In this document: positions 13,513-15,781 of the stretch, in pieces
Layout: each line of letters begins with the position of its first letter
Numbering within the stretch: the first letter of the stretch is position 1
Assembly: GCA_029577135.1 (NCBI GenBank)
Contig: JARQPW010000004.1
Span: 1-64,000, forward strand
From: Acidimicrobiales bacterium
GTDB lineage: Bacteria > Actinomycetota > Acidimicrobiia > Acidimicrobiales > MedAcidi-G1
Direction of reading: 5' to 3'
Length of the DNA: 64,000 nt
Program-made: the position numbers and the translations under genes
Notes under the pieces: model-generated
Told to the model about the DNA's origin: nothing
Databases searched by the model: none
What the model saw: only the letters and a program-made list of their open reading frames with translations

Positions 13513-14685
13513 ATGGCTGAACTCCACGACATCCGGCACCGCTTTCCGGGTCTCGCCGGAGGATGGGCCCGTTTCGACGGTCCTGCCGGAACTCAGGTGC
13601 TCGACTCGGCGATCGACGCGATGGCCGACTGGCAGCGCAGCGGCAACAATGCCAACGCCCACGGTGCGTTCCCCGCCTCGCAGGCCTGCGACGCCCTCGA
13701 AGAGCGTACGACGGCGACCATGCGCGAGTTCTTCGGCGCCGGGTCGGGCGGAATCGTCTTCGGCCCCAGCACCACGGCCAACCTCATGGCCCTGTCGCGT
13801 GCCGTGGGCCGCACCCTCGGGCCGGGCGACGAGGTGGTCTGTACGACGCTCGACCACGACTCCAACGTCACCCCCTGGGTGCTGGCCGCCGAGGACTCGG
13901 GGGCGACGGTGAGGATGGCGGAGTTCGACGGCGCAAGCGGTCGCCTGGCCACCGGGGCGGTCGTCGACCTGATTGGACCAGCGACGCGCTGGGTAGCGGT
14001 CACCGGTGCCTCGAACGTGATCGGCACCATGCCCGACCTGCCGGCCATCGCCGAGGCGGCCCATGCCGTCGGCGCCCGTGTTGTGGTCGACGGCGTGCAC
14101 CGGACCCCCCACGTCGCCGTCGACGTCGGAGCCCTGGGATGCGACGTCTACGCCACATCGTCCTACAAGTGGTACGGGCCCCACGCCGGGGTGATGTGGA
14201 TGGCCGACGACCTCGTCGACGACCTGCCCGCCTACAAGGTGCGACCGGCACCGGCGACCGGAGGCGCCCGTTGGCAGTACGGGACGGCCTCGTACGAGGC
14301 CCTCGCCGGCATCGACGCCGCGGCGCGCTTCCTGCTCGACACCGGCATGGACGCCATCGAGGCGCACGGCCAGAACCGTCTGAAGCGCCTCCTCGCCGGC
14401 CTTCACGGCCTCGTCGGGGTCCGGGTCATGGCGTCGACCGGGCCCGACGACGTCGACGACCGGGCACCGACACTCCAGTTCCTCGTCGAGGGCCATGCCC
14501 CACACGAGGTGGCCGGGCACCTCGCCACCGCACGGGTCGCCGTATGGGACGGCCACAACTACGCCGTGGAGGCGATGGTCCCCCTCGGCCTCGACCCGGA
14601 GGCCGGGGCGGTGCGGGCCGGGATCTCCGCCTACACCACCGACGAGGACGTAGACCGACTCCTGGGGGCGGTCGCGGCGCTGTGA
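13513..14685 (+). CDS. Cysteine desulfurase-like class V aminotransferase (NifS family)
   Basis: A 390-residue fold-type I PLP enzyme. Conserved parts are the N-terminal FDGPAGTQV, the cofactor region TTLDHDSNVTPW, VDGVHRTPH with the PLP Asp, and the Schiff-base lysine in SSYKWYGPHAG. It belongs to the NifS-like subgroup without an obvious mobile-loop cysteine, so activity on cysteine, selenocysteine or another substrate is open. It lies 70 nt upstream of selD on the same strand, so a role in delivering selenium as selenide is tempting but inferred. Confidence 0.72.
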   Translation: MAELHDIRHRFPGLAGGWARFDGPAGTQVLDSAIDAMADWQRSGNNANAHGAFPASQACDALEERTTATMREFFGAGSGGIVFGPSTTANLMALSRAVGRTLGPGDEVVCTTLDHDSNVTPWVLAAEDSGATVRMAEFDGASGRLATGAVVDLIGPATRWVAVTGASNVIGTMPDLPAIAEAAHAVGARVVVDGVHRTPHVAVDVGALGCDVYATSSYKWYGPHAGVMWMADDLVDDLPAYKVRPAPATGGARWQYGTASYEALAGIDAAARFLLDTGMDAIEAHGQNRLKRLLAGLHGLVGVRVMASTGPDDVDDRAPTLQFLVEGHAPHEVAGHLATARVAVWDGHNYAVEAMVPLGLDPEAGAVRAGISAYTTDEDVDRLLGAVAAL

Positions 14686-14755
14686 GGCTCCTGGGTCCGA
14701 TCCCGCCCCTGATCTACCCTGACCGGCGTATGGGACCAGCGAAAGGGGGCGATTC

Positions 14756-15781
14756 ATGCGACGACTGACACAGTTCAGCCACGGCGCCGGTTGAGGCTGC
14801 AAGCTCGCCCCCGGTGAGCTGGCGTACGTCGTGCGCCGCCTGGCACCCGTCGACGATCCTGCCCTCCTCGTGGGGGCCGCCACCGGCGACGACGCCGCCG
14901 TCTACCGGCTGGACGACGGCCGAGCGCTCGTGGTGACCGCCGACTTCATCACTCCCGTCGTCGACGATGCCCGGATGTGGGGCCGCGTCGCCGCCGCCAA
15001 TGCGGTGTCGGACGTGTATGCCATGGGCGGCCGGCCCCTGCTGGCGCTCAACCTCGTGGGGTGGAACAGCGAGGAGCTGTCGATCGACCTGCTGGCCGAG
15101 GTCCTCCTCGGCGCGCAGGATGTCGCGTCCGAGGGCGGATTCGTCATCGCCGGCGGCCACACCGTCGACGATCCCGAGCCAAAGTTCGGGCTGGCCGTGG
15201 TGGGGGAGGCCGATCCGGATCGGCTCCTCACCAACACCGGTTTCCGCCCGGGTGACGCCCTCGTGCTCACCAAGCCGCTCGGCATCGGGGTCATCACCAC
15301 GGCAATCAAGGCCGGCACGGCACCCGACGACGTGGTCCACGGGGCGCTGGACTCCATGACACGGCTGAACGCCGAGGCGGCATGGGTGGCGCTCGATGCC
15401 GGGGCCACCGGCGCCACCGACGTCACGGGCTTCGGGCTCCTGGGGCACCTCGGCCGTGCCGTCATGGAGTCCGGTGTCGACGCCGAGATCGACGTCGGCG
15501 CCGTGCCGCTGCTCGACGGCGCCCGGGTGTTGGCCGAGGCCGGTTCCATCCCCGGGGGCAGTCGCCGCAACCTGGCCTGGGTCGACGAGCGGCTCGACCG
15601 CGGGGGCCACGACGAACCCGACGTGCTGCTCCTGGCCGACGCCCAGACCTCGGGTGGCCTGGTGTTCGGCGCTGCACCGGCGGCGGCACACGAGGCTATC
15701 GAGCGGCTCGAGGGCTCGGGCCACACGGCCTCGGTCATCGGCCGCGTAGCCGAGGGGGACGGCCGCCTCCGTCTGGCCTGA
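14756..15781 (+). CDS. selD: Selenophosphate synthetase containing selenocysteine (TGA at 14792)
   Basis: SelD makes selenophosphate from selenide and ATP. The true start is ATG 14756, after AAAGGGGG. Residues 7-17 read FSHGAG-U-GCKL, with TGA (14792-14794) at the catalytic position that is Cys17 in E. coli SelD, followed by GCK with the conserved Lys. The frame then runs unbroken to 15781, giving 341 residues with ATGDDAAVY, FITPVVDDARMWGRVAAANAVSDVYAMGG, GGHTVDD and the ATP-binding VTGFGLLGHL. A standard gene caller would start after the TGA and lose the active site. A hairpin follows the TGA at SECIS distance. It implies selA, selB and selC elsewhere in the genome. Confidence 0.93.
14792..14820 (+). 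promoter_or_regulatory. UGA codon plus candidate bacterial SECIS hairpin
   Basis: Seven nt after the UGA, AGCTCGCC (14802-14809) pairs with GGTGAGCT (14813-14820) around a CCC loop, with one G-U pair. Bacterial SECIS hairpins lie directly downstream of the Sec codon inside the coding region, and SelB binds their apical loop. The geometry fits, though the small loop is unusual and a longer alternative fold is possible. Confidence 0.6.

Follow-up and report, generated by a model that had tools for sequence, protein, structure and literature searches.

A predicted selenocysteine-containing selenophosphate synthetase with an in-gene SECIS hairpin in an Acidimicrobiales genome

Selenophosphate synthetases (SelD) that carry selenocysteine (Sec) in place of the catalytic cysteine were counted 38 times by Zhang et al. 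(2006, PMC1794560), where they were described as being, with FdhA, the selenoprotein family of widest distribution. Of the SelDs of a prokaryotic reference set, 19% had Sec, always at the position equivalent to Cys17 (PMC4561486). Known bacterial Sec-SelDs, such as those of Pasteurellales and the 38 of Zhang et al. 2006 (PMC1794560), combine Sec at Cys17, a bSECIS within the gene and a genome carrying selA, selB and selC. The selD gene analysed here, from a genome of the order Acidimicrobiales, resembles them in all three respects and differs in lineage, but in nothing of principle. It also belongs to the same family as the E. coli-type Cys-SelD (3u0o) and, by sequence, has the same fold, but Sec is predicted where that enzyme has its catalytic Cys; because of this Cys, E. 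coli SelD needs no SECIS. An earlier note on this DNA had described a Sec-dependent SelD in an actinomycete. Its observation and interpretation hold, but to see a surprise in it would be an overstatement, as the actinobacterium Rubrobacter xylanophilus was already listed among the Sec-SelD carriers in 2006 (PMC1794560). Sec-SelD is among the commonest bacterial selenoproteins and has been reported in actinobacteria before, and the present gene is a well supported addition to it.

In the window, i.e., the whole stretch of 64,000 nucleotides analysed, the selD frame begins at ATG 14756, reads MRRLTQFSHGAG, reaches a TGA at 14792-14794 and continues with GCKLAPGEL (Table 1). After this TGA come 328 sense codons and a TGA stop at 15779-15781, which confirms the frame proposed in the earlier note. 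The product matches the SelD family models TIGR00476 (364.4 bits, cut-off 125) and NF002098 (341.5 bits, cut-off 299) over its full length, and both AIRS domains were found in it. The closest solved structure is 3u0o (selenide, water dikinase; E 9.9e-77), with an alignment spanning residues 3-332. In the alignment, the first Cys of the HGAGCGCK motif of this structure stands opposite the TGA, and the sequence FSHGAGUGCKL carries the N-terminal catalytic loop HGAG(C/U)xCK, including the Sec/Cys position and the Lys after it. We take this site to be Cys17 in E. coli numbering, an equivalence that had already been suggested and that the alignment supports. With very high confidence, we regard the gene as encoding a functional selenophosphate synthetase with Sec in the catalytic loop in place of Cys17, its insertion being directed by a SECIS at 14821-14837. 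We infer the actual insertion of Sec and the enzyme activity from the frame, its conservation, the covariation of the hairpin, the presence of selA, selB and selC and the other genes with an in-frame TGA.

Table 1. Features of the selD locus and further genes of the genome with an in-frame TGA.
Feature	Position	Strand	Basis or remarks
Cysteine-desulfurase-like PLP enzyme (TIGR01976/PF00266)	13513..14685	+	Profile match, place conserved
G-rich ribosome-binding-site-like stretch, 5' of ATG 14756	14745..14755	+	Sequence; GGAGGTG at the equivalent place in relatives
selD, predicted selenophosphate synthetase with Sec at codon 13	14756..15781	+	341 aa and stop
In-frame TGA, predicted to be read as selenocysteine, codon 13	14792..14794	+	Alignment, conservation in relatives
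Proximal hairpin AGCUCG...UGAGCU, probably not SECIS	14802..14820	+	Paired in most sequences, no covariation
Distal hairpin (bSECIS) GGCGUAC-GUC-GUGCGCC	14821..14837	+	Covariation, published bSECIS model
Formate dehydrogenase alpha subunit, TGA in SCNRTUHAPS	G000:C13:3412-4686 (L050)	-	GGUCU-loop hairpin behind the TGA
SelW/Rdx-like, CVPU	G000:C64:50049-50261 (L138)	-	One in-frame TGA at redox residue, bSECIS-like hairpin
Peroxiredoxin, TPGUT	G000:C1:5523-5900 (L141)	-	One in-frame TGA at redox residue, bSECIS-like hairpin
TlpA-like, SUPIC	G000:C9:6423-6755 (L144)	+	One in-frame TGA at redox residue, bSECIS-like hairpin
AhpD-like, CHYU	G000:C66:679-840 (L150)	+	TGA at second position of CxxC-type motif, GGCGC-GGUCU-GCGCC-like hairpin
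AhpD-like, CFYU	G000:C21:12037-12147 (L151)	+	TGA at second position of CxxC-type motif

Conservation of the TGA site was searched for in 247 genomes of the same class. Exactly one TGA was present in the selD gene of all four other genomes of the same genus or family, and most of the remaining good matches in the class also had one, the others having none. The codon at the site was TGA in 18 and TGT or TGC in 12 of 30 class loci. A set of 110 SelD loci that takes in named genomes of other phyla had TGA in 34 and TGT/TGC in 76, with no TAA, TAG or other residue. The TGA is aligned with the Cys of homologues, and its flanks are conserved on both sides. Chance does not account for it, since the TGA and the codons ahead of it recur in all four close relatives and in much of the class. 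These 12 codons are kept as protein in relatives, and the sequence 5' of the ATG diverges among near relatives, in which a GGAGGTG ribosome-binding site lies 7-8 bases 5' of the upstream start. Aligning the N-terminus with homologues had been proposed earlier as a check, and the claim passed it.

These results bear on an alternative in which the TGA simply ends translation, or has arisen by a pseudogene mutation, and GTG 14831 is the start of a shorter SelD. A 316-aa ORF does begin at this codon, which is the first ordinary start 3' of the TGA, 75 bp from ATG 14756, and a conventional gene caller would start there and report a truncated enzyme, as the earlier note had expected. However, a site restricted to TGA or Cys codons is not expected of a plain stop or a pseudogene, and the conserved codons ahead of the TGA, the divergence 5' of the ATG and the ribosome-binding site of the relatives also argue against it. 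A SelD begun at GTG 14831 would be missing the catalytic loop HGAGU/CGCK, and the genome carries selA, selB and selC. We consider a simple stop very improbable; in practice, conservation has already refuted it.

Two hairpins lie behind the TGA, and the earlier note, which had claimed a hairpin at SECIS distance, was silent on which of the two it meant. The distal one, whose 3' arm contains GTG 14831, has a 7-bp stem and a GUC loop, with 33 nt from the UGA to the 3-nt loop and an energy of about -11 to -12 kcal/mol. It fits the published bSECIS model, which has a 3-9 nt loop with G in its first two positions, 4-16 bp in the stem, a spacing of 16-37 nt and an MFE of at most -7.5 kcal/mol (PMC13188914); the spacing here is in the upper part of that range. 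Since 15.6% of the TGAs in this GC-rich window, counted on both strands, are followed by a bSECIS-like hairpin of -7.5 kcal/mol or better, the hairpin counts as evidence only through its covariation. Among 17 distinct Sec sequences, it pairs in 95.6% of cells, and four pairs show two-sided changes. The covariation score was 0.322 versus 0.175 +/- 0.025 for shuffled alignments (0 of 500 as high), and versions slid along the alignment reached at most 0.121. A covarying hairpin was common to all 18 aligned class-level Sec loci, with an invariant apical-loop G-U. No consensus fold was found at this place in 12 Cys homologues, 11 of which lack the hairpin. The proximal hairpin was rejected as a SECIS for want of covariation. 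A hairpin of almost identical sequence (GGCGCAGGU..UGCGCC) occurs in two SelDs with a TGA, from a Chloroflexota MAG (L067) and a Gemmatimonadota MAG (L084), which points to a SECIS that is anciently conserved or was transferred.

The complete Sec machinery that had been predicted was found in the genome. The selA (388 bits) and selB (266 bits) genes are neighbours on contig C23, the SelB product having a SECIS-binding winged-helix domain, and a tRNA-Sec gene (selC, anticodon TCA, 67.5 bits) is located about 12 kb before them. The genome thus holds selA, selB, selC (anticodon UCA) and selD together, the set that defines the Sec-decoding trait. Across 50 genomes, selA was present in 22 of 23 with Sec-SelD, in all 17 with Cys-SelD and in none of the 10 lacking SelD. 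The single Sec-SelD relative without selA (G188) is 79% complete, and its lack of the gene is most simply a gap in the assembly. No match to TIGR03167, the model for the tRNA 2-selenouridine synthase SelU/YbbB, was found in the window's genome (about 93% complete); of the two selenium traits looked for, Sec and selenouridine, Sec is therefore the only one seen. In a genome from another family of the order (G087, contig C12:194195-196677), selA is immediately preceded by a Cys-selD, which is not the arrangement in the window's genome.

Readthrough of the SPS UGA with an amino acid other than Sec is known in some insects (PMC4561486). Such a reading, through near-cognate suppression or a reassigned code, is hardly credible here, given the dedicated tRNA-Sec with its TCA anticodon and SelA/SelB, the termination of selD itself and of other genes by TGA, the alternation of TGA with Cys and a SECIS hairpin that covaries only in the TGA forms.

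Besides selD, six further genes of the genome have an in-frame TGA, each followed by a hairpin that fits the bSECIS model. The formate dehydrogenase is a near-certain second selenoprotein, and the SelW-like, peroxiredoxin, TlpA-like and two AhpD-like proteins are candidates. These rank with the commonest selenoprotein families of bacteria (PMC2398784). The earlier expectation of other missed selenoproteins was thereby borne out, with a Sec formate dehydrogenase and five candidates having a TGA at the redox site. Six is a lower bound, because the search went family by family. A covariance model of the SelD SECIS, run on the genome, returned SelD alone at a meaningful E-value (next best 0.2), so SECIS elements outside selD escape this model. 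When the window and 40 kb around selAB were scanned by coding potential for read-through of TGA, only ordinary intergenic stops and chance frames came up, and a search for the GRDB family (PF07355) gave short C-terminal matches only, without a TGA.

A tree of 54 SelDs contained four changes between Sec and Cys, whose direction we infer because the tree is rooted at its midpoint. The clade that holds the window SelD is well supported and consists of 30 rows, of which 27 are Sec. Genome G083 and two Pseudonocardia have Cys forms nested in this clade, most simply explained by two Sec-to-Cys reversions, and Sec seems to have preceded Cys there. In the Cys-SelD of G083 (L030), a hairpin (GGCGA-GGUCG-UCGCC) still stands where the SECIS would be, and the genome retains selA. 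This hairpin is likely a Sec-to-Cys fossil, like the SECIS fossils described in 2006 (PMC1794560).

The gene directly upstream of selD matches TIGR01976 with 360 bits (cut-off 352). The gene holds the same position 5' of selD in the same-genus and same-family genomes, in MedAcidi-G2B and in two further Acidimicrobiales MAGs. A plausible role of this cysteine-desulfurase-like enzyme would be that of selenium donor to SelD. A PF00266-type gene next to selD was named earlier as a selD-linked candidate in genomes with orphan selD (Peng et al. 2016, PMC5029168). The gene just before selD in the window is likewise of the PF00266 family, but the orphan selD genomes lack other selenium traits, whereas this genome has the full Sec trait.

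For the Sec-containing SelD, we propose that, at the UGA (14792-14794), SelB on the hairpin 14821-14837 would bring Sec-tRNA-Sec to the ribosome, and translation would go on to 15781. The enzyme would then make selenophosphate from selenide and ATP, its predicted activity, and SelA would use selenophosphate to convert Ser-tRNA-Sec to Sec-tRNA-Sec. As SelA uses the selenophosphate of SelD, SelD would be needed for its own synthesis and for that of the other selenoproteins of the cell. Because the enzyme depends on Sec in this way, the amount of SelD might serve as a built-in selenium switch in this clade, with the conserved upstream desulfurase-like enzyme as the dedicated selenium donor of the loop, an idea that we consider speculative and rather unlikely. 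If it were true, UGA 14792 would terminate translation when selenium runs out, SelD would be lost and the whole selenoproteome would go off together.

The understanding of selenocysteine insertion is unchanged by these results, which bring no new mechanism. Annotated without regard to Sec, this genome would have a truncated SelD and at least one, and probably six, other broken genes. Selenocysteine use in this actinobacterial class is widespread and apparently old.
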